Source: Mucinivorans hirudinis
GTDB taxonomy: Bacteria; Bacteroidota; Bacteroidia; Bacteroidales; Rikenellaceae
NCBI GenBank assembly: GCA_000723505.1
Contig: HG934468.1
Location: 1,768,798-1,832,797, forward strand
Length of the DNA: 64,000 nucleotides
Direction: 5' to 3'
The notes beneath the pieces were generated by a model. It saw nothing but the letters and a program-made list of their open reading frames with translations, was not told the DNA's origin and searched no databases. Shown in pieces: positions 12,396 to 53,446 of this stretch. Position 1 is the stretch's first letter. Each line of letters starts with the position of its first letter. The position numbers were made by a program, and so were the translations under genes.

Positions 12396-13317
12396 ATTTG
12401 TATGTCGTATTGTCGATTATAAATTCCCACACACCGCCCTCGTTCCAAGCGGGTTCATTAGTCAGTACCCATATTGCTCCCATTCCCGAGGTGAGTATAT
12501 AGCGGTTGTTTTCGTCTCGCTCTGGTTCGGCGTAGTTGCCCGATGGCACCGTTTTCATTGTGATGCGGCAATTACGGCGGTTACCGTGTTTCTGCACTAA
12601 GCCAACTAGAAAGGCATCAATGGTCGGCTGGCGATAGACAAAAGTCAAAAGATTCAGTTCCATCAACTCCTTTAGCTCAACGAGCGGCATCAGTTTCTCT
12701 GTTTTGATACTATCGAGCGTTATCCGAAATGTGCCCCGAAGCATCGGCAAACTATCAAGTGGCAAGGAGACATCCGACACCTTGAATCGCTCCACCGAAA
12801 GCGGTTTTAATATATACATTGCTAATGGTCGTAAATCACTCACATCAAGAGTTTTGAACGATGCTTGTATATACAGTGTAACTTTCCGTTTTTCGCCGAT
12901 AGATGAATCGAAAATATGGGTGATATTTTGCACCGTGTCGGTGAGCGTAATGGTCTCCCCCGGAGAGTTATCACCCCAATCAACCTCGATATTTCCGCTA
13001 CCCGAACAGGAGAAGCCGACACTGATTTCAGTGTTGGAGGTGTAAACCTCAACGCACTTAGGCAGCGTAAAGCTCTTGGGGTAGACGTGCATTTCACCCG
13101 ATGCCGGAGTGATACCGTGCGTATCGTAATAGGCTGAAACCTCTTTGTTAATCAGATAACCTTCGGTGTAATTCAGCTCATCACCCGAACGCAAATCGCT
13201 ATCGAGCGACAAGTTCTCATTCGTTGCCAGCAGGTCGAGAATCCCCTCCACCGAGCCGTAGATATGTAGGGCCACATCATAGATATTTTGCCCTTGTGTG
13301 ATTCTGTATTTACCCAT
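12379..13317 (-). CDS. LysM-containing baseplate/tail protein with PKD-like domain
   Basis: I use the ATG at 13317 (MGKYRITQGQNIYDVALHIY), which overlaps the preceding stop by 8 bp; the longer frame begins in upstream coding sequence. Residues 3-50 form a LysM domain (QGQNIYDVALHIYGSVEGI, LATNENLSLDSDLRSGDEL), as in tail-tube-end or baseplate proteins that hold peptidoglycan or bind the hub. Around residues 95-140 lies a PKD-like beta domain with VDWGDNSPGE. The remainder is unrecognised. Its place before gpJ suggests a baseplate hub cap (gp53-like). Confident for LysM; role inferred. Confidence 0.7.
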   Translation of the reverse strand: MGKYRITQGQNIYDVALHIYGSVEGILDLLATNENLSLDSDLRSGDELNYTEGYLINKEVSAYYDTHGITPASGEMHVYPKSFTLPKCVEVYTSNTEISVGFSCSGSGNIEVDWGDNSPGETITLTDTVQNITHIFDSSIGEKRKVTLYIQASFKTLDVSDLRPLAMYILKPLSVERFKVSDVSLPLDSLPMLRGTFRITLDSIKTEKLMPLVELKELMELNLLTFVYRQPTIDAFLVGLVQKHGNRRNCRITMKTVPSGNYAEPERDENNRYILTSGMGAIWVLTNEPAWNEGGVWEFIIDNTTYKYGTNN

Positions 13318-13990
13318 TTTTCTCTCTGACCTCCAATAATAGTTCACCTGTTTCCGAGTTCATATAGGCGTTAACGACAATCATATTGTCCGCCTCAAAC
13401 TCCTTTTGAAGCTTCGCTGCCAATCCTGAGTTCTCAAAATTGCCGTGCAGAAAGTCTATCAGCCCAACACCGGTTAGGGGATGCTGGTAGAGCGTACCTG
13501 CCGATGCCCGAAGCAGAAAGTTTTGGTTCTGTGACAGCGATGCCTTTACCAGCAAATCGGTCTCTTTGCCGCTATACAGGCTCAGGCGACCACCCTCTAA
13601 CCGCAGGTTGAAATAGTTCTGCTCATTGATTGCTCTGAACTCTGCCAAACGAATTGCAACGCCATCGGGCAAAGCCACATCAAACCACAACCCGTTATCA
13701 CTTGCATTGCGAATAAACTCCGAGAGATCGCTATTCAAATCCACCCGAAACCGCACTCTCAACTGCTTGAAAATAGGTTTGTAGGGAATGGAGATATGCG
13801 CTTCAAGCCCATCTTTGACTCGTTTCTCGAAGTTCTGCGGAATAATGACCTCTCCATAACAGTAGTTGTCGTTATCAGCCCCCGGCACACTATCGAGCAG
13901 CACAAAATCATAGTTCATCTTGCCGATTATATTGTCTGTGGTCTCCAACTCGCCGTAATCGGCATCTATCTGTATATCTTGTCTTGCCAT
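13310..13990 (-). CDS. Unknown baseplate-region protein (possible gpW/gp25 position)
   Basis: The start is taken at ATG 13990 (MARQDIQIDADYGELETTDN) because the longer frame adds eight weak residues and runs into a terminator hairpin. The 226-residue product has beta-rich sequence with RVRFRVDLNSDLSEFIRNAS and LTGVGLIDFLHGNF, and ends ETGELLLEVREKNG. I do not recognise a family. It is first in the run LysM, gpJ, gpI, fibre, where contractile-tail phages usually encode a gp25/gpW wedge protein, but the sequence does not clearly match that family. A late promoter and an attenuator-like hairpin precede it. Confidence 0.6.
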   Translation of the reverse strand: MARQDIQIDADYGELETTDNIIGKMNYDFVLLDSVPGADNDNYCYGEVIIPQNFEKRVKDGLEAHISIPYKPIFKQLRVRFRVDLNSDLSEFIRNASDNGLWFDVALPDGVAIRLAEFRAINEQNYFNLRLEGGRLSLYSGKETDLLVKASLSQNQNFLLRASAGTLYQHPLTGVGLIDFLHGNFENSGLAAKLQKEFEADNMIVVNAYMNSETGELLLEVREKNG

Positions 13991-13999
13991 CGTATAATT

Positions 14000-14044
14000 A
14001 AAAAAGCCGCCCAATCGTTTAGGAGTGAGCGGCTGGTTTCACTC
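14000..14044 (-). terminator. Terminator/attenuator in the leader of the baseplate operon
   Basis: On the - strand AGCCGC (14034-14029) pairs with GCGGCT (14010-14005), extendable by two pairs, and is followed by six T. It ends only 10 bp before the ATG at 13990. A second, competing hairpin can form: GAGTGA (14044-14039) with TCACTC (14028-14023), which would trap the 5' terminator arm in its loop. Promoter P11 lies immediately upstream, so transcripts from it must pass or stop here. Confidence 0.7.
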
Positions 14045-14048
14045 TATA

Positions 14049-14079
14049 AAAGAATAGAGAAAACAGAGCAAGAAAGTTT
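14049..14079 (-). promoter_or_regulatory. Late promoter motif P11 (AAACTTT / CTATTCTTT)
   Basis: AAACTTT at 14079-14073, then exactly 15 bp, then CTATTCTTT at 14057-14049 on the - strand. Unlike most copies it is 58 bp from the next start codon, and a terminator-like hairpin lies in between. Confidence 0.8.
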
Positions 14080-14081
14080 AT

Positions 14082-14405
14082 TTAGTCACCGGAAATCGAG
14101 TCATAAATGGTAGAAACCGTACCCCACATATCATCGGGCAGGTTCTCGTCAGAGATTTTCTCGCATACCATTTTCAGGTACTCCATCTCGTCTTTGGAGA
14201 AGTCGATATGTAGCGGTTTATCTTTCTCTACATCCCACTCGATACGTTTGGTCTCGGCGTTCTCGTGAAGATTAATCTCTTCGCGCTCCGTTTCTGAGAT
14301 TTCGATTTTGCGTAGAATCTCTTTCTTGAGATTGAACTGTTTGAAGTTACCCTCCTTGGGCAGAAATACCGGTAGGTAAAGCCTGTCTTTGATGCTTAAT
14401 TCCAT
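14082..14405 (-). CDS. Small unknown protein in the tail region
   Basis: The 107-residue acidic protein (MELSIKDRLYLPVFLPKEGN) contains the helical segment KEILRKIEISETEREEINLHEN and ends MWGTVSTIYDSISGD. It is not recognised. It lies 17 bp after a 103-residue gene and before the baseplate operon, and shares their late promoter at 14753-14783. Two small genes between fibre and baseplate genes could be assembly chaperones or structural adaptors, but the sequence gives no direct evidence. Confidence 0.6.
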   Translation of the reverse strand: MELSIKDRLYLPVFLPKEGNFKQFNLKKEILRKIEISETEREEINLHENAETKRIEWDVEKDKPLHIDFSKDEMEYLKMVCEKISDENLPDDMWGTVSTIYDSISGD

Positions 14406-39516: not shown

Positions 39517-39547
39517 AAAGAATAGCAGAATTTGACCGTGATAGTTT
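39517..39547 (-). promoter_or_regulatory. Late promoter motif P7 (AAACTAT / CTATTCTTT)
   Basis: AAACTAT at 39547-39541, 15 bp, CTATTCTTT at 39525-39517, 17 bp before the tape-measure ATG. Confidence 0.8.
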
Positions 39548-41558: not shown

Positions 41559-42042
41559 ATTGTATTTCAAATATTCTTCCTGCAATACCGCAATTTTTTA
41601 GCACCTGCGAGTTAGCCTCGTCAAAAGCAATCAGGCACGATGGTGCACCGGCAGTACCACCACGCTCACCTGTAACGTGATGAAACGACAATCGCCCTTT
41701 GATAAAGAGAATCGAATGAGCGTGTCGAAATATGAGTTCCTGAAAGAGCTTGGTTTCGGTTCGGGCAAAGGTGAGTGCTATAGCGTTCTTATGCTCGATA
41801 CAGCGTTCTATAAACTGAATAATAAGCCGAGTGTCATACGGTGGATTGCAAAAGACACGTCCTTGCCACGGCTGTACTAAGCCGTCATCTTCGATAGTGA
41901 AGTGATTATTTGCTGTTGCCCAAGGACGATTAATAGGAGCACAGGGGTCTAAATCAAATTCTCCAAGTTTAGCTAAAATATCCGGAGGAGTTAACCATTC
42001 ATTCTTGCCGGTGGAGGAGTTTCCCTCAAAAGTTACGTTCAT
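41557..42042 (-). CDS. Phage Dam-type N6-adenine methyltransferase
   Basis: The 161-residue protein belongs to the phage Dam family: EWLTPPDILAKLGEFDLDPC with DPC at 32-34, and the catalytic NPPY at 66-69 (VFCNPPYDTRL). A later TGERGGTAGAPSCLIAF contains the conserved glycines. Length is typical for the small phage family. It would methylate adenines of phage DNA. Unusual: it is encoded inside the late tail region under its own late promoter P5, so it would act on progeny DNA late in infection, perhaps to protect it from host or its own type I restriction; that link is inference. Confidence 0.88.
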   Translation of the reverse strand: MNVTFEGNSSTGKNEWLTPPDILAKLGEFDLDPCAPINRPWATANNHFTIEDDGLVQPWQGRVFCNPPYDTRLIIQFIERCIEHKNAIALTFARTETKLFQELIFRHAHSILFIKGRLSFHHVTGERGGTAGAPSCLIAFDEANSQVLKNCGIAGRIFEIQ

Positions 42043-42065
42043 ATCTGATACGATTATTGTTCGTA

Positions 42066-42096
42066 TCAGAATAGTGTGATTTCGGTTGAATGGTTT
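42066..42096 (-). promoter_or_regulatory. Late promoter motif P5 (AAACCAT / CTATTCTGA)
   Basis: AAACCAT at 42096-42090, 15 bp, CTATTCTGA at 42074-42066, 23 bp before the Dam ATG. Its -35 half abuts the T-run of the terminator at 42098-42131. Confidence 0.75.
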
Positions 42097-42097
42097 G

Positions 42098-42131
42098 AAA
42101 AAAGCCGCGACCTATCACAGGCAGCGGCTTT
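42098..42131 (-). terminator. Intrinsic terminator after the tube gene
   Basis: AAAGCCGC (42131-42124) pairs with GCGGCTTT (42108-42101) on the - strand, with a 15-nt loop that itself has a CCTGTGATAGG dyad. Six T follow. It ends transcription of the sheath-tube unit just before promoter P5. Confidence 0.78.
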
Positions 42132-42161
42132 CGCACAAATGATTAAGCTGAAAAATCAATT
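42098..42161 (-). ncRNA. Candidate ~64-nt small RNA from promoter P4
   Basis: Promoter copy P4 (42168-42198) has no gene behind it: the next 70 bp hold no ORF and end in the terminator at 42098-42131. A transcript starting about 42161 would be 60-65 nt long and end in a GCCGC hairpin plus T-run. I infer a small RNA or simple transcription filler; it could also be a relic promoter. Confidence 0.4.
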
Positions 42162-42167
42162 TTCTAT

Positions 42168-42198
42168 TAAGATTAGCCGAACAATGAGCAAAGAGTTT
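42168..42198 (-). promoter_or_regulatory. Late promoter motif P4 (AAACTCT / CTAATCTTA)
   Basis: AAACTCT at 42198-42192, 15 bp, CTAATCTTA at 42176-42168. It lies 12 bp after the tube gene and leads straight into a terminator, not into an ORF. Confidence 0.7.
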
Positions 42199-42209
42199 AA
42201 TCAAAAGGA

Positions 42210-42665
42210 CTAAATCGTATCGCCATCGCCAATTTGGATGTCGAATGGGTTCAAGTCGAACTCCTTGGTGATGTCGGTATCGTCCTGCTTGGACTCCATA
42301 CCGTCCTCAGAGAAGATACAGCCCTTCAAGGTTACGGTGGTTGTGGTCCAGTCATCTGATGCCATTGGGTTGGCAAAGCTGACGATAAGGTCGAACTCTC
42401 CGATATCCATCAATGAACCATAAGTCGAGCGCAACATCTGCTGAGTGGCATAATCCATCGTGATGGATGCCGTATAAGAGATATTTCCAAAACCACGACT
42501 GACGGGTTTACCGCCCATTCCGTAGTTCGATTCAATCTTACGTTTCTTGTTCCATTTGATACCCGAAACACCCTCAAGTGTGGTTGAGCCTGCCTCGATT
42601 CCGAGAGCTGTCGATGAGAGGGTTATCATCGACCACGAATAGGCTACGTTGTTAATTATAGGCAT
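42210..42665 (-). CDS. Tail tube protein
   Basis: The start is ATG 42665 (MPIINNVAYSWSMITLSSTA); the longer frame adds nine poor residues. The 151-residue protein fits the contractile tail tube: GVSGIKWNKKRKIESNYGMG, then SITMDYATQQMLRSTYGSLM and FDLIVSFANPMAS. It immediately follows the sheath gene (gap of about 45 bp). It should polymerise into the inner tube. The intervening GACAC-TAT-GTGTC dyad (about 42695-42710) may moderate sheath/tube transcript levels but is short. Confidence 0.8.
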   Translation of the reverse strand: MPIINNVAYSWSMITLSSTALGIEAGSTTLEGVSGIKWNKKRKIESNYGMGGKPVSRGFGNISYTASITMDYATQQMLRSTYGSLMDIGEFDLIVSFANPMASDDWTTTTVTLKGCIFSEDGMESKQDDTDITKEFDLNPFDIQIGDGDTI

Positions 42666-44426: not shown

Positions 44427-44441
44427 TGTTAGTCAAGAATT

Positions 44442-44472
44442 AAAAAGGGAGGTGGAGATTGCCCCACCTCCC
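44442..44472 (-). terminator. Intrinsic terminator downstream of the major capsid gene
   Basis: On the - strand GGGAGGTGG (44472-44464) pairs with CCACCTCCC (44455-44447) around an 8-nt loop, followed by five T (44446-44442). A 9-bp GC-rich stem and a T-run make it a strong candidate. It would lower sheath and tube expression relative to capsid, letting some polymerase pass. Confidence 0.88.
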
Positions 44473-44510
44473 CGGGATTAAAGAATCTATGATCAGCAGT
44501 AAAGAAAGGG

Positions 44511-45557
44511 TTACGCCTTTTTGTATGCCGTGTGGACCACAATCTCGCCAGGACGAACAATGTTTACGTCCATCTTCATACGCATCTGGAAGAAGAAGAG
44601 CTCTGAGTTCGCTTGCAGGCGGTCAATCTTCAACACCTCGCTGTCATTGGCGTAGTCAACACCCATCCAAAGGTTGGAATCCATTCCGGTGGTGAACTGA
44701 CCCAACACGATGGTGTGTTCGGGAATACCCACGATAGGTGTGATTTTCTTGCCCTTGAAGCGGTAGCGGTTCACCTCTGTATTCTCAGAGTATTTCACCA
44801 TCTTGTCCGAGATGTACTGGTCGTAAGCGTCCCACGCTTCCCAACCGATGACAAATGAGAGTCCCGGATTGTTGCGGATCTGCTTGGGACACTTTTTCCA
44901 CATCGCATAGAGGGCGGCTTCAACTGCTGCACCGTCGGTCAGTTCAGTGTTGCCTGAGACAACACATTGACCACCTGCGATAGTTTGGGCATCGGTGGCA
45001 TTCACGTTGTCGATAATGCGTTTGATTACACCGTCGAAATACTTCTCCTTGCCACGTCCGATTTGAATAGAGTCTGTCGGAATCGCCACTCCCGCAGCCG
45101 CTGCACCACCTTTGGCCGCTGTCCAGATAGCGTTGCCGATGTACTCGTTTTTCTTGTCCATCAACAGACGAAGCATAGTCGCCTGCACCTTGGGATCAAG
45201 CTCACGGAACACCAGGTTTCCGTCAGGTTGTGCAAACTTCCAATACTTTTCGTAGTCACGAGGGTTGAACTCCAAATAGACCATAAAGTCGGAAGGGTTC
45301 AGGTGTCGCTCGGTAAATTGGTACTCATTCTCGCCGTTTGGACCCTTGGCACCTTGGACAGATGTTGGGGTTGGCGTGTTGTCCTGAATAATTTCACCCA
45401 GCTTGATTGCCGGTAATGTGTACTTGTGTTGAATGCCCGACTTGATGTGGATAAGACCCTGTTTGTAGGTGTCATTACCTTGGGCGGTATAGGTGAGTAG
45501 GTCTTCGAGAACCTCTCCGTTATACCCATTCTGTAAAAATGATACTGTATCTGCCAT
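44511..45557 (-). CDS. Major capsid protein
   Basis: The 348-residue protein (MADTVSFLQNGYNGEVLEDL) has HK97/Mu-type capsid features: an N-terminal arm, a phrase with NPRDYEKYWKFAQPDGNLVF and FRELDPKVQATMLRLLMDKK, a central domain with GLSFVIGWEAWDAYDQYISD, and the C-terminal motif KKITPIVGIPEHTIVLGQFT followed by TTGMDSNLWMGVDYANDSEV. It follows the protease-scaffold gene by 15 bp and is followed by a strong terminator. This is the expected most-expressed protein. Family exact name uncertain; the capsid role is secure from context and the presence of the scaffold. Confidence 0.85.
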   Translation of the reverse strand: MADTVSFLQNGYNGEVLEDLLTYTAQGNDTYKQGLIHIKSGIQHKYTLPAIKLGEIIQDNTPTPTSVQGAKGPNGENEYQFTERHLNPSDFMVYLEFNPRDYEKYWKFAQPDGNLVFRELDPKVQATMLRLLMDKKNEYIGNAIWTAAKGGAAAAGVAIPTDSIQIGRGKEKYFDGVIKRIIDNVNATDAQTIAGGQCVVSGNTELTDGAAVEAALYAMWKKCPKQIRNNPGLSFVIGWEAWDAYDQYISDKMVKYSENTEVNRYRFKGKKITPIVGIPEHTIVLGQFTTGMDSNLWMGVDYANDSEVLKIDRLQANSELFFFQMRMKMDVNIVRPGEIVVHTAYKKA

Positions 45558-45572
45558 GTTTTTAACTGATTA

Positions 45573-46118
45573 TTATTTCATTGATTTGAATTGGAAGTTC
45601 TCACCGACCACCTGAGTAACCTTCTCGGCTATCTTCTCTTCGGCGGTTTTGGTCGACTCGGCAGCAGCTTGAACATTAGCCGGGTCAGCAGCGATTTCCT
45701 TTGAGATTTGTTCACGCACGGGAATTCCGGCAAGGGTGCTTTCAACCAGTGCAAGGTTGTTATCAGCCATATTTACCCAGTCGGCTTTTGTCTCACGGCT
45801 GATTTTTCCTGCCTCGATAGCAGCTTCAATCATCGTTTCGATTTTTGCCTTCTTCTCGGTAGCCTCTTTTTGCTGATAGGTCGAGAGTGAAGTGGTTGCG
45901 GTAGCCAAGTCTTTCTGAAGGTTGGTGATTGCAGCCTCTTTGCCTGCGATAACCGTCTGTGCGTCTGTGAGAGATTTTTCAGTCTCTTTCAGTTTTGCCT
46001 CGATGGTCACCAGTGCATTGATACGTGCCATCACATCCTTCATTTCGTAATTCTCTTTTAGTCCGAGTGTTGCGGCTACCGCAGCGTATTCGGCAGAGGT
46101 TGTTTTTTCTGAATTCAT
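45573..46118 (-). CDS. Internal scaffold protein (nested start)
   Basis: A nested ATG at 46118 (MNSEKTTSAEYAAVAATLGL) lies 23 bp behind late promoter P3 inside the protease gene and gives a 181-residue scaffold in the same frame. This equals the Mu gpZ / lambda Nu3 pattern. The separate promoter suggests the scaffold is made in excess over the protease, together with the capsid protein just downstream. Confidence 0.75.
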   Translation of the reverse strand: MNSEKTTSAEYAAVAATLGLKENYEMKDVMARINALVTIEAKLKETEKSLTDAQTVIAGKEAAITNLQKDLATATTSLSTYQQKEATEKKAKIETMIEAAIEAGKISRETKADWVNMADNNLALVESTLAGIPVREQISKEIAADPANVQAAAESTKTAEEKIAEKVTQVVGENFQFKSMK

Positions 46119-46862
46119 CGTGTTAGTATTATTTGTTTGATTAAGAATAGTGTTATCGCCTTCAAAAAGTTTAATGGGCTGATCTGTGGGGAGAGAAGCT
46201 GTGATTTCAGCCATCAGATTTTGGATTTGAGAGATGTCTTCAACCCCAGAGATCCCTGCCTTCACCTTGTCGCAAAGTTGCTTTGAGGTTGGGATTACAT
46301 TCTCTGTTGGGATGATACCTGCTTTGACTGCCGAAGCTGCATCGAAGAATGTTCCGTCTTTGTCCGCCTCGCCGCTCATAATGGCGCGGACATGTTCGGC
46401 TTTCAGCCCGAAGCGTTTGCGGTAGATGGTTTCGATTTGTTTGGTGAATGCCTTGACCATATCCGATGGTTCATCGCACTGGTTCTCTGTGTTGCATTTA
46501 TCTTCGGCGGTGGGCTGGAAGGGATTGTGAATCATCAGAATCGCATAGTCCCGCATCAGGGATCGGTCTGCTGCCGCCCAAATGATGGAACCCATCGAAG
46601 CGGCCAAGCCCTCGATGATGCATTCTGTTTCGATTTTGGAGTTACGGATGGTGGAGTATGTGCTCATACCGTGAAGCACAGAGCCGCCCTCAGAGTTGAT
46701 AAGCACTCTGATACATTTGGGGCGTACTACATTTTCGAGATAATCGAACTCAGCATTGAATTGGCAGGTGGATTCCTCCGAGACCCTGCCGAAAAAGCGA
46801 ATCGTAGCCACTTCGCCACTTTTCGCTTCGCCGATTATGTTTTGGAATTTTTCTGTGTTCAT
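45573..46862 (-). CDS. ClpP-like prohead protease fused to scaffold
   Basis: The start is ATG 46862 (MNTEKFQNIIGEAKS); the longer frame begins in noncoding DNA that holds promoter P2. The 429-residue protein has a ClpP-type serine protease (residues ~20-200): IRVLINSEGGSVLHGMS, the nucleophile Ser89 in GLAASMGSI and His112 in MIHNPF. A C-terminal scaffold of about 180 residues follows, with coiled coils (KLKETEKSLTDAQTVIAGKE), plus Glu/Thr/Ala-rich terminus. Protease and scaffold in one gene, with the scaffold also made alone from an internal start, is the Mu and lambda arrangement. The scaffold is degraded after capsid assembly. Confidence 0.9.
   Translation of the reverse strand: MNTEKFQNIIGEAKSGEVATIRFFGRVSEESTCQFNAEFDYLENVVRPKCIRVLINSEGGSVLHGMSTYSTIRNSKIETECIIEGLAASMGSIIWAAADRSLMRDYAILMIHNPFQPTAEDKCNTENQCDEPSDMVKAFTKQIETIYRKRFGLKAEHVRAIMSGEADKDGTFFDAASAVKAGIIPTENVIPTSKQLCDKVKAGISGVEDISQIQNLMAEITASLPTDQPIKLFEGDNTILNQTNNTNTMNSEKTTSAEYAAVAATLGLKENYEMKDVMARINALVTIEAKLKETEKSLTDAQTVIAGKEAAITNLQKDLATATTSLSTYQQKEATEKKAKIETMIEAAIEAGKISRETKADWVNMADNNLALVESTLAGIPVREQISKEIAADPANVQAAAESTKTAEEKIAEKVTQVVGENFQFKSMK
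46142..46172 (-). promoter_or_regulatory. Late promoter motif P3 inside the protease gene (AAACTTT / CTATTCTTA)
   Basis: AAACTTT at 46172-46166, 15 bp, CTATTCTTA at 46150-46142, 23 bp before the nested scaffold ATG. The motif is intact although it is in coding sequence. Confidence 0.8.
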
Positions 46863-46876
46863 AAAATACCTTTCCC

Positions 46877-46907
46877 AAAGAATAGGGCTATGGCACAGAA
46901 AAAGTTT
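46877..46907 (-). promoter_or_regulatory. Late promoter motif P2 (AAACTTT / CTATTCTTT)
   Basis: AAACTTT at 46907-46901, 15 bp, CTATTCTTT at 46885-46877, 14 bp before the protease ATG at 46862. The 46863-47081 stretch otherwise holds no ORF. Confidence 0.85.
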
Positions 46908-47081
46908 ATTGCGTGTGGTTTGGATTGAACTTTTTGAAATAATCAGCTGAGTTTGCATTGATAAAATGCAAATTTCTATATGTTTTTGCATTGAATAATC
47001 GCAAATTCAAGAACAATAGCACTGGCAAACAATACATTATGTAATTGTGAGTTTTGCGCAAAAGTGCAGGATATAGAAAGC

Positions 47082-51327: not shown

Positions 51328-52653
51328 ATGCAGGTAGAAACATCTCAAAATTCATTCAATGGGGAGCTTTTGGAGAGCATATTTCGCACTTCAAAAAAGA
51401 CCATCACAGAATATGTTCGGGAGATTGAAAGAAACAATCGTTATAAATCCATACGGCAGGACATCACTTTGGGCACTATCCTTGACGACCGCTCTCGACT
51501 GATTGACCTGTATGAGGCGTGTTTAGAGCAAGATGCTCATATCCGTTCTGTTATTGAAACGCTTGAGAGCCAGATTCTGGGCGACAGGTATATGTTGGCC
51601 CGTATGAACGACAAGGGAAAATATGTAAAGGATGTCCATTATACCCAACTCATTCAGGGTACGCAGTTCGATAAAATCATTCGTGGCATCATAGAATCTA
51701 AATTGTTTGGGTACTCACTCATTGAGATTATGCCGCAGATCAACAAAACCACCGGCAAATTAGCCGAAGTCAATCTCATCGAAAGGCGTAATGTTCTCCC
51801 TGACCAGCATACTGTTGTCAAGCGACAAGGGTTATGGCTGCCGAACTGGGATATCTCATCGGCGGCCTACCGTGCAAATTATGTGCTGGTAAACTCCGGC
51901 GGCATAGGATTGTTCTCCGCTACTACACCGCTTATCCTTGCCAAAAAGTTCACGGTAGCCAACTATGTGAACTTCTCGCACACGTATGGTCAACCGATTA
52001 TCCACGGCAAAACGGTCTCAGAGAGCAATGCCGACCGCAAACGTCTTGCCAACGACATAGCCAATGCTGCACAGAACAAGGTAGTAATTACCGGAATTGA
52101 GGACGAGGTGGAGATCAAGACCTTTACGATGTCCAATTCAGAGAAGATATACACCTCGCTTATCGAATTTGTGAATCGTGAAGTGTCGAACCTCATTCTT
52201 GGTTCTGAGTCGATGGCGGGAGCCACTCAATCATACGTCGGTTCGACCAAAGCTCATCAGGACATCTTTCGTGAGCGTATCGAGGTCTATCGCCGTTACA
52301 TCGAGAATGTGATGAATGAAGAGATAATGCCCCGATTGGTTGCGATGAGTTATCTCCCCTCAGACCTTGAGTTCAAGTATTCAAACCGCATTGAGATGAA
52401 CAATGAAGATCGAATCAAACTCTACCAACTCATTACCGACAAATACGAAGTGGCTGCCGATGAGATTGAAAAGGAGTTCGGCATCAACGTGGGTCGTCAA
52501 CTCAATGTGGAAGTCGGTTTGGAAGGCAGTGTAGTGGGAGCAAACGCTTCGAAAGATAGGCGTGTGATGAGCGATGAGGAGTATTATCGCCGTTACGGGC
52601 ATAGTAGAAGCTCCAAGGTTGCTAACTTTCTAAAGGTTCCATCAAATGGCTAA
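51328..52653 (+). CDS. Portal protein (DUF935, Mu gp29-like)
   Basis: The 441-residue protein has the DUF935 pattern: SIRQDITLGTILDDRSRLID, DAHIRSVIETLESQILGDRY in the clip region, IIRGIIESKLFGYSLIEIM, and a later YGQPIIHGKTVSESNADRKR. The C-terminal part has RNLIERRNVLPDQHTVVKR-like wording plus FRERIEVYRRYIENVMNEE. Mu-like phages use this protein as the dodecameric portal through which DNA is packaged. It is the first gene of the + strand head operon and overlaps the next gene by 8 bp. Confidence 0.88.
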   Translation: MQVETSQNSFNGELLESIFRTSKKTITEYVREIERNNRYKSIRQDITLGTILDDRSRLIDLYEACLEQDAHIRSVIETLESQILGDRYMLARMNDKGKYVKDVHYTQLIQGTQFDKIIRGIIESKLFGYSLIEIMPQINKTTGKLAEVNLIERRNVLPDQHTVVKRQGLWLPNWDISSAAYRANYVLVNSGGIGLFSATTPLILAKKFTVANYVNFSHTYGQPIIHGKTVSESNADRKRLANDIANAAQNKVVITGIEDEVEIKTFTMSNSEKIYTSLIEFVNREVSNLILGSESMAGATQSYVGSTKAHQDIFRERIEVYRRYIENVMNEEIMPRLVAMSYLPSDLEFKYSNRIEMNNEDRIKLYQLITDKYEVAADEIEKEFGINVGRQLNVEVGLEGSVVGANASKDRRVMSDEEYYRRYGHSRSSKVANFLKVPSNG

Positions 52654-53446
52654 GGTAGAGGTTAAGGAGAATAGCAAGACACGGGAACAGTTCCTGCTGA
52701 TAGTGGACGCTTTCAGACGTATGCTCTACAACGTAGAGAATAGTGCTGAGCGGTTAGAGGTCTTTGACGATATTATCACATTGCGAGCTTCGTTTCTGAT
52801 TGACTCCGTGCTGGATGGTTTGCGGATTGACTTTGACAGGGCAATGGAGCTTTTTCAGGCTAAGAATCTGCATCTGACCGAGCGAGATGAGTCAGAACGA
52901 GATACCCTTATGGCCGCATTTGACAATCTGGTAGATTTTGCCGTAGCCCAGGAGGTGGCAATGATGCAAGAACTCCCCGAGGAACTCGACTTGGCTGAGA
53001 TGGAGAGCTATGAGGCTATCTGTCGCAAGTACAACGAAACCTATGCAGAAACCGAGAATGCACAGGTACTACACGCCGGGGCGATAGCTGCATTTTGGAT
53101 AGGACTTAGTGCAGAATCATTGATAACTTACAATACCCAAAACGATGAGCGAGTAAGAGAACTACACCAATCATTTGACGGGCTGACCTATCCAAAGAGT
53201 CAGTTTCCACCGGAACTAATCCCTCCAATCGAATGGGCATGTCGCTGTTATCTCACGGCAGATGGTTACGGCTCTGTGATGGATTCTATACTTAAGCCTC
53301 AGATAAAGGTCAATCCAATTTTTGCTGAGAGCTTGGCTACCGGTGGGCGCATCTTCACTAACGCACACCCATACTTTCGACACACGCTTCCGCCCGAGGT
53401 AGAGGCAATTAAGCAACGCATAAAGACAAAGCTATGGCTAAGATAA
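52646..53446 (+). CDS. Mu gpF-like head morphogenesis protein
   Basis: The 266-residue protein has a long helical N-terminus (FRRMLYNVENSAERLEVFDD, ITLRASFLIDSVLDGLRIDF). The C-terminal head-morphogenesis motif is TQNDERVRELHQSFDGLTYP followed by ELIPPIEWACRCYLTADGYG (W-x-CRC-type). It is a minor head protein, probably at the portal vertex. It overlaps the portal gene and the gpG-like gene by a few codons, typical of translational coupling. Family assignment is firm from the motif. Confidence 0.85.
   Translation: MAKVEVKENSKTREQFLLIVDAFRRMLYNVENSAERLEVFDDIITLRASFLIDSVLDGLRIDFDRAMELFQAKNLHLTERDESERDTLMAAFDNLVDFAVAQEVAMMQELPEELDLAEMESYEAICRKYNETYAETENAQVLHAGAIAAFWIGLSAESLITYNTQNDERVRELHQSFDGLTYPKSQFPPELIPPIEWACRCYLTADGYGSVMDSILKPQIKVNPIFAESLATGGRIFTNAHPYFRHTLPPEVEAIKQRIKTKLWLR

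Follow-up and report, generated by a model that had tools for sequence, protein, structure and literature searches.

Insertion sequences IS10 and IS50 carry an inhibitory hairpin that is formed only by read-through RNA, since the element's own RNA starts inside the hairpin, and in IS10 this hairpin blocks translation of the transposase. The decision taken by the trp attenuator is kinetic. Origin-dependent termination is also known for the lambda N and Q systems, and the lambda late promoter pR', which is used with Q, is directly followed by the terminator tR'. On the structural level, the E. coli trp attenuator was described to form the mutually exclusive pairings 1:2, 2:3 and 3:4, with 2:3 being the antiterminator that gives read-through (PMC13178558). 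For HK022 put, it was described that termination depends on the origin of the RNA, putL being located directly downstream of its promoter, and the same source describes lambda Q together with sigma pausing (PMC9378689). Similarly, origin-dependent termination of a processive kind was described for conAn of pLS20 (PMC8955417) and for canT of Tn916 (PMC11658703).

The late prophage promoter analysed here, P11, is followed at once by a terminator, and we interpret the locus, where two late operons meet, as an intrinsic terminator gated by the start site of the RNA, a reading drawn from the sequence and from predicted folds to which we assign a probability of roughly 55%. An arrangement of this kind was not found in the open-access literature searched with narrow terms, and the accessible text of the hankyphage paper (PMC12135933) yielded no passage on terminators or late genes.

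The P11 element in its prophage setting

The window, i.e., the whole stretch of 64,000 nucleotides that was analysed, contains a prophage region with Mu-like head genes on the plus strand (Pfam Portal_Mu and Phage_Mu_F, 51328-53446) and with matches to tail sheath, tape-measure and baseplate-hub proteins on the minus strand. The late promoters of the minus strand share the layout AAACTTT-N15-CTATTCTTT with a spacer fixed at 15 nt, and their boxes are compatible with the -33/-7 type of promoter described for Bacteroides (PMC7366714). Copies with the exact 15-nt spacing have their upstream ends at 46907, 46172, 42198, 42096, 41558, 39547, 21359, 14783, 14079 (P11) and 11550, those at 42198 and 42096 carrying 3 and 4 mismatches, respectively.

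In P11, the end of the box lies 58 nt from the ATG of the tail-region gene, compared with roughly 10-24 nt to a plausible start codon for the other copies as judged by eye, the exception being 42198 with none nearby. This bears out an earlier sequence-only reading of this DNA, which had noted the unusual distance and had placed in the gap a terminator and a competing GAGTGA/TCACTC pair; both are present (Table 1). The terminator stem consists of 9 bp plus an inner 2 bp, and the first three bases of segment 3 are also the top of its 5' arm. We infer that transcription from P11 starts near 14046-14045. The same reading had named the downstream gene a baseplate gene; this name is a positional one only, and neither the 226-aa product nor gene X has a PHROG or Pfam match.

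Table 1. Features of the P11 element and of the genes on its two sides (window coordinates).
Feature	Sequence or product	Position	Strand	Basis or remark
Late promoter P11	AAACTTT (14079-14073), 15-nt spacer, CTATTCTTT (14057-14049)	14049-14079	minus	Fixed spacing as in other copies
Segment 1	CUCUAU, -7 region of P11	14054-14059	minus	Predicted hairpin with AUAGAG when read-through RNA is folded
Partner of segment 1	AUAGAG, overlaps segment 2	14042-14047	minus	RNA fold
Segment 2	GAGUGA, predicted 5' end of the P11 RNA	14039-14044	minus	Pairing and -7/-33 geometry (PMC7366714)
Segment 3	UCACUC, antiterminator partner of segment 2	14023-14028	minus	Pairing analysis
Terminator hairpin	5' arm AGCCGCUCA, 3' arm UGGGCGGCU (segment 4)	14005-14034	minus	-16.0 kcal/mol
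T-run	TTTTT, 3' of the hairpin	14000-14004	minus	Sequence
Gene X	107 aa, last gene upstream	14082-14405	minus	Terminator between gene X and tail gene
Tail-region gene	226 aa, ATG at 13990	13310-13990	minus	No family match

The 100-nt P11 region folds at z -5.5 compared with shuffles, a value that includes the contributions of both the promoter-box hairpin and the terminator. A simple terminator scan with loops of up to 8 nt did not report the P11 terminator, probably because its loop is longer than 8 nt. A terminator for the opposite strand was ruled out, the plus strand being without a T-run after the hairpin, and a known riboswitch or RNA family as identity of the element was ruled out by the Rfam search, which gave 0 matches in the window at gathering score.

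Elsewhere on the minus strand, a late promoter at 46142-46172 lies within the ORF (45573-46991) of a ClpP-like head protease, with an ATG after it; this might represent a nested scaffold gene with its own promoter. Between two genes at 42042-42210, the weaker motif 42198 is followed by a terminator ending near 42100 and by the second promoter 42096. The box of 42096, CTATTCTGATACG, has its complement, CGTATCAG, directly before the next ATG, and the two possibly form another hairpin restricted to read-through RNA. At about 44430-44500, a strong hairpin and T-run are located 3' of the gene at 44511-45557, and no late promoter with 15-nt spacing was seen between this hairpin and the next gene; it may be a partial terminator lowering downstream expression. 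Finally, the tape-measure promoter at 39517-39547 shows some complementarity of box and leader (-7.5 for the fold of the whole stretch, -3.1 for the single helix), and no terminator was seen downstream of it.

Terminator placement and competing pairings in related prophages

Homologues of the tail gene and of gene X were collected from viral contigs, genome contigs, a phage collection and genome samples. Carriers are rare: the tail gene was found in 1 of 4 in the genus, 5 of 268 in the family and 11 of 393 in the order (mostly weak partial matches), as well as in 1 of 9 and 3 of 101 in two other families, and gene X in 1 of 395 in a sample of the phylum. Rows from the same contig or with identical sequence were dropped (L004, L016, L032, L047 and L051 as L015; L006 and L034 as L019; L002 and L058 as L030; L003, L031 and L060 as L020; L010 and L012 as L022; L007, L008, L009 and L011 as L017, L018, L021 and L024, respectively; L054 as L027; L056 as L033; L057 as L026; L048 and L052 as L028; L055 as L053; L046 as L029), and L023, which begins inside the gene, and the weak partial matches L013, L014 and L037-L045 were not used.

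This resulted in 18 distinct regions upstream of the tail gene. Each of them has a terminator, at one of two sites; none of the 18 has intact terminators at both sites, and none lacks a terminator. In the 12 leader-type regions (the window, L015, L019, L021, L024, L026, L029, L030, L033, L036, L049 and L059), 13-23 nt separate the end of the terminator from the ATG, and the promoter box lies 54-67 nt upstream of the ATG in 11 of the 12, no promoter box having been found in L021. In the other six (L017, L018, L020, L027, L028 and L053), the terminator directly follows gene X, in most cases with cargo after it, and the tail gene has a promoter of its own further downstream, with no terminator called from there to the ATG. 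The own box is 12-20 nt from the ATG in five of these; L020 differs, with a distance of 55 nt, a decayed leader terminator and gene X 3.5 kb away with its own terminator. Gene X was confirmed in 17 of the 18 regions, the contig of L029 starting too close for confirmation, and a terminator lies between gene X and the tail gene in all 17. L022, L025 and L050, where gene X was not found, are outside this count; in L022 and L025 no terminator was seen by eye in the approximately 150 bases before the ATG. Since terminator and gene X go together, the terminator probably serves to end the upstream transcript. The compact form puts this terminator inside the leader of the next promoter, and the pairing seems to solve the problem thus created.

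The natural rearrangements, among them the decayed leader terminator of L020, mostly agree with start-site gating. The terminator that follows gene X in L027 and L053 belongs to a unit of the P11 type. In L053/L055, cargo has come between this unit and the tail gene; both promoter boxes carry one change each and the loop complement is lost, while the terminator is kept. In L027 the full unit is intact despite its separation from the tail gene, and the insertion is probably recent, because the unit is nearly identical to that of L019. At the junction of gene X and the tail gene, antisense ORFs are found between the terminator and a fresh late promoter (L003/L020, L017, L018, L027 and L053/L055), so that from its sequence the junction looks like a spot for cargo insertion.

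With regard to the pairing of leader and terminator (segments 2:3), the window taken alone is only modestly unusual: compared with shuffles that keep the terminator, the best helix gave p 0.037 and the fold of the truncated RNA p 0.13. Chance pairing is nevertheless rejected by the relatives as a set. A pairing over 5-10 bp is possible in 12 of 12 leader-type elements, e.g., GAGAGUGAAUG/CGUUCACUUUC in L015, AUAGAGUGA/UCGCUCUGU in L026, GAGAGUG/CACUCUU in L036, AGAGUGC/GUACUCU in L033, ACACA/UGUGU in L030 and AGCAC/GUGCU in L021; that of L059 (CCCCA/UGGGG) is ambiguous. The single helices of L024 (-0.4) and L030 (-1.4) are weak, by a measure that gives no credit where segment 2 enters the hairpin's own first bases (L019, L024). 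The helix energy summed over 11 elements, with the L027 unit excluded as a near-copy of L019, amounts to -77.7, compared with -29.5 (sd 6.6) in terminator-preserving shuffles, and row by row p is below 0.05 in 9 of 12.

The elements were grouped by leader sequence, not by tree, into clade A (the window, L015, L026, L036, L049), clade B (L019, L024, L029, L033) and clade C (L021, L030). In the stricter test, on the fold of the truncated RNA, the 11 elements gave z -3.7 and p 0.001 (p below 0.05 in 4 of 11 rows), with p 0.001 for clade A, 0.003 for clade B and 0.95 for clade C at its cut; these elements share ancestry, and the p-values here and in the other tests overstate their independence. 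A scan of viral contigs with the promoter-leader pattern of clade B returned one contig, which was already in the set. Moreover, 7 terminators without a P11-type promoter immediately upstream, among them that of L053 as a former P11 unit, have a mean 2:3 energy of -0.6, and the pairing is stronger in the leader type (12 vs 7, p 5e-4); the decayed unit of L020 lies outside this test. L059 is part of this comparison and of the placement set and is absent from the helix-shuffle, cut-RNA fold, fold-test and hand-alignment sets.

MAFFT alignments failed to align segments 2 and 3 in all rows, and covariation tools were not applied to them. The pairs were counted in a hand alignment of 9 elements, from which L030 and L021 were excluded because their pairing sequences are unrelated. 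In this alignment 60 of 63 cells are paired, with G-C, G-U or A-U at position 6 and A-U, C-G or U-A at position 7. Most elements have an AGAGUG core in common, which is absent from L030 and L021, where only the complementarity is kept. When leaders and hairpins are swapped, they often still pair inside the AGAGUG group, as expected of related sequences, and L030 and L021 mostly misfit the others. The pairing that the sequence-only reading had wished to see preserved in relatives is thus kept, with some compensatory changes. Its idea that the leader sequesters the terminator arm holds in part: the leader can pair with the arm, but in the window 2:3 covers only the top three arm pairs. By sequence and prediction, antiterminator and terminator are mutually exclusive, the overlap being only partial in the window, and AGCCGC of the arm remains unpaired in the 2:3 loop, which means that the competition in the window would be kinetic or could end in a pseudoknot.

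The promoter supplies a further arm. In the predicted fold of the window's read-through RNA, the -7 region of P11 pairs with the leader (CUCUAU with AUAGAG), the single-helix measure choosing another register (GCUCUGU/AUAGAGU, -5.0). Segment 1 is present in RNA that enters from upstream and, given the inferred start site, missing from the RNA of P11 itself. Corresponding 1:2 pairs are GUUCACUCU/AGAGUGAAU in L015 and UACUCUUU/AAAGAGUG in L019 and L029. The box:leader hairpin has a mean of -5.6 kcal/mol in terminator-bearing promoters (n=9) vs -0.4 kcal/mol in the others (n=20), with p 3.5e-6 for these related sequences. For tail-gene promoters only, the ranges separate, with -2.9 to -9.1 for the 9 with a terminator and -0.5 to 0 for the 6 without; the control promoter 39547 (-3.1, no terminator) just exceeds the weakest terminator-bearing member, L030 (-2.9). 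Whole-stretch folds of 27 promoters separate less cleanly, 46907 and 39547 folding as well as the P11 types. One promoter was used per identical stretch (L033 counted with L019) and terminators were labelled by a pattern from known hairpins; the comparison missed the L028 promoter and the P11 of L021 and L059, the P11 of L036 was added by hand, and motif 42198 was scored as having none though a terminator lies further on.

A promoter-internal arm that pairs only in read-through RNA is thus present by sequence and prediction, off target in L030, where the promoter region pairs GGCCG/CGGCC and would hold the base of the terminator instead of segment 2, and absent from L059, with a degenerate promoter and no 1:2, and from L021, with no recognisable promoter. 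The two-structure layout proposed earlier was correct for promoter, terminator and competing pair and overlooked this third segment. The segments are conserved and show some covariation, and the terminator occupies one site or the other; the anatomy of the element and its conservation are well supported.

Proposed start-site gating and alternative explanations

The gating itself is a prediction, in which four segments would compete: segment 1 in the -7 region, segment 2 in the first bases of the P11 RNA, segment 3 in the loop and upper 5' arm, and segment 4 as the 3' arm. A polymerase coming from gene X would transcribe segment 1, and 1:2 would fold first, leaving 3:4 free to form and thereby ending the upstream transcript. 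RNA started at P11 would begin downstream of segment 1, 2:3 would fold while arm 4 is still inside the polymerase, and the resulting delay of 3:4 would let transcription cross the T-run into the tail gene. One stretch of about 90 bp would in this way both end one operon and start the next, gated by RNA alone and with no ligand required. That the untranscribed -7 region doubles as anti-antiterminator of the incoming RNA, so that foreign transcripts are stopped and the own ones exempted, and that this is kept in related Mu-like Bacteroidales prophages, is a tentative claim to which we give slightly less than even odds.

Folding calculations agree with such an order of folding and with a termination that would differ between the two RNAs. 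If the RNA is cut before arm 4, the own RNA of the 11 elements is predicted to fold into 2:3 at -4.0 to -9.4; in L036 it already switches from 2:3 to the upper terminator stem when arm 4 is still 6 nt short, and in L029 when it is 4 nt short. In the cut read-through RNA, 1:2 dominates in 7 of 11, L015, L026 and L021 favour 2:3 at equilibrium, and in L030 the promoter region is paired with the terminator base instead. The computed barrier to the terminator in the 11 elements is 8.3-12.7 kcal/mol for the own RNA vs 2.2-3.9 kcal/mol for read-through RNA, in a calculation that ignores pseudoknots and whose read-through values presuppose the earlier formation of the segment 1 and 2 fold. In the full-length RNA, the terminator exceeds 2:3 in stability in 11 of 11 elements (hairpin -12.9 to -24.8 vs 2:3 -4.0 to -9.4), and any gating must therefore be kinetic, like that of the trp attenuator. 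As the 2:3 loop of the window leaves the lower terminator arm unpaired, a pseudoknot that still terminates might form there; a conserved pseudoknot was ruled out, as the geometry varies between the elements.

The terminator might simply belong to the upstream operon and overlap the promoter, with leaky read-through feeding the tail gene and the leader pairings as by-products. Its position after gene X in all 17 confirmed regions and its being the favoured fold of the full-length RNA agree with this, and leaky terminators are plausible in the late region given the hairpin and T-run of the 44511-45557 gene with no late promoter seen after it. However, this would leave the compensatory changes unexplained, as well as the fact that 1:2 and 2:3 accompany leader terminators and are not seen where a promoter of this gene lacks such a terminator, and we regard it as unlikely.

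Control by a signal or a protein appears less likely still. Here, the outcome would be set by a factor of the phage or the host, or by an antiterminator like lambda Q; the latter would load at the loop sequence UACUCU, a -7-like pause element similar to the promoter box. In L019, L024, L029 and L033 the loop segment is similar to the -7 box, motif 42198 of the window likewise precedes a terminator and then a second promoter before the next gene, and a promoter followed by a terminator is the lambda late layout, for which sigma pausing and Q are described in PMC9378689. In contrast, the loops of L030 and L021 are unlike the box and yet complementary to the leader (ACACA/UGUGU, AGCAC/GUGCU). The attenuator proposed by the sequence-only reading keeps its terminator between promoter and ATG and its competing pair; the placement fits the end of an upstream operon that exempts P11 better than an attenuator sensing a signal.

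The placement likewise fits such an end signal better than the product of about 42 nt which the same reading had considered. A small RNA gene, in which P11 and the terminator yield an RNA of about 42-50 nt with a role of its own, is improbable. A start site and a terminator mark canonical intergenic small RNAs (PMC7366714), and the L027 unit is intact though separated from the tail gene. Against this, the near-identity of L027 with L019 suggests a recent insertion, the promoter boxes of L053/L055 are both changed while the terminator remains, the AGAGUG core is missing from L030 and L021 with complementarity alone kept, and the window is without an Rfam match. It is very improbable that a pseudoknot at the 5' end serves to stabilise the mRNA or to block ribosomes. 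Both stems of the window could stack, joined by loops of 4 and 12 nt, but segment 2 of L019, L029, L033 and L024 includes bases closing the terminator stem, so that both stems cannot form in full.

If start-site gating is true, a phage can pack the end and the start of an operon into about 90 bp by RNA alone, with neither protein nor ligand. Moreover, genetic circuits in Bacteroidota would gain a natural insulator, and caution would be needed before a promoter is called silent on account of a terminator directly behind it.

Comparison with known systems

The P11 element resembles the trp attenuator in its exclusive hairpins with 2:3 as the antiterminator (PMC13178558). It differs in that segment 1 lies in the promoter and is missing from the promoter's own RNA, and in that neither a conserved leader peptide nor a ligand was found. 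Among 10 leaders scanned there is no conserved short leader ORF, frame, length and stop varying among the relatives, and this rules out an attenuator of the trp type with a leader peptide; in the window, the leader offers a GTG frame of 7 codons and the first ATG is that of the tail gene, and several relatives have leader frames without a stop before the tail gene.

As in IS10 and IS50, the hairpin of P11 is predicted to be formable only in read-through RNA. Unlike in IS10, the outcome would be termination and not a block of translation; the hairpin is located upstream of the terminator and not at the ATG, so that the translation start is not hidden. With HK022 put, conAn and canT the P11 model shares a termination that depends on the start of the RNA. 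Those systems are processive and act on distant terminators, whereas P11 would be a local base-pairing switch at one terminator. Finally, P11 resembles lambda pR'-tR' as a late phage promoter with a terminator immediately after it, and differs in that the model needs no Q-like factor. The P11 model would combine the anatomy of the trp attenuator with an IS10-like logic of origin.
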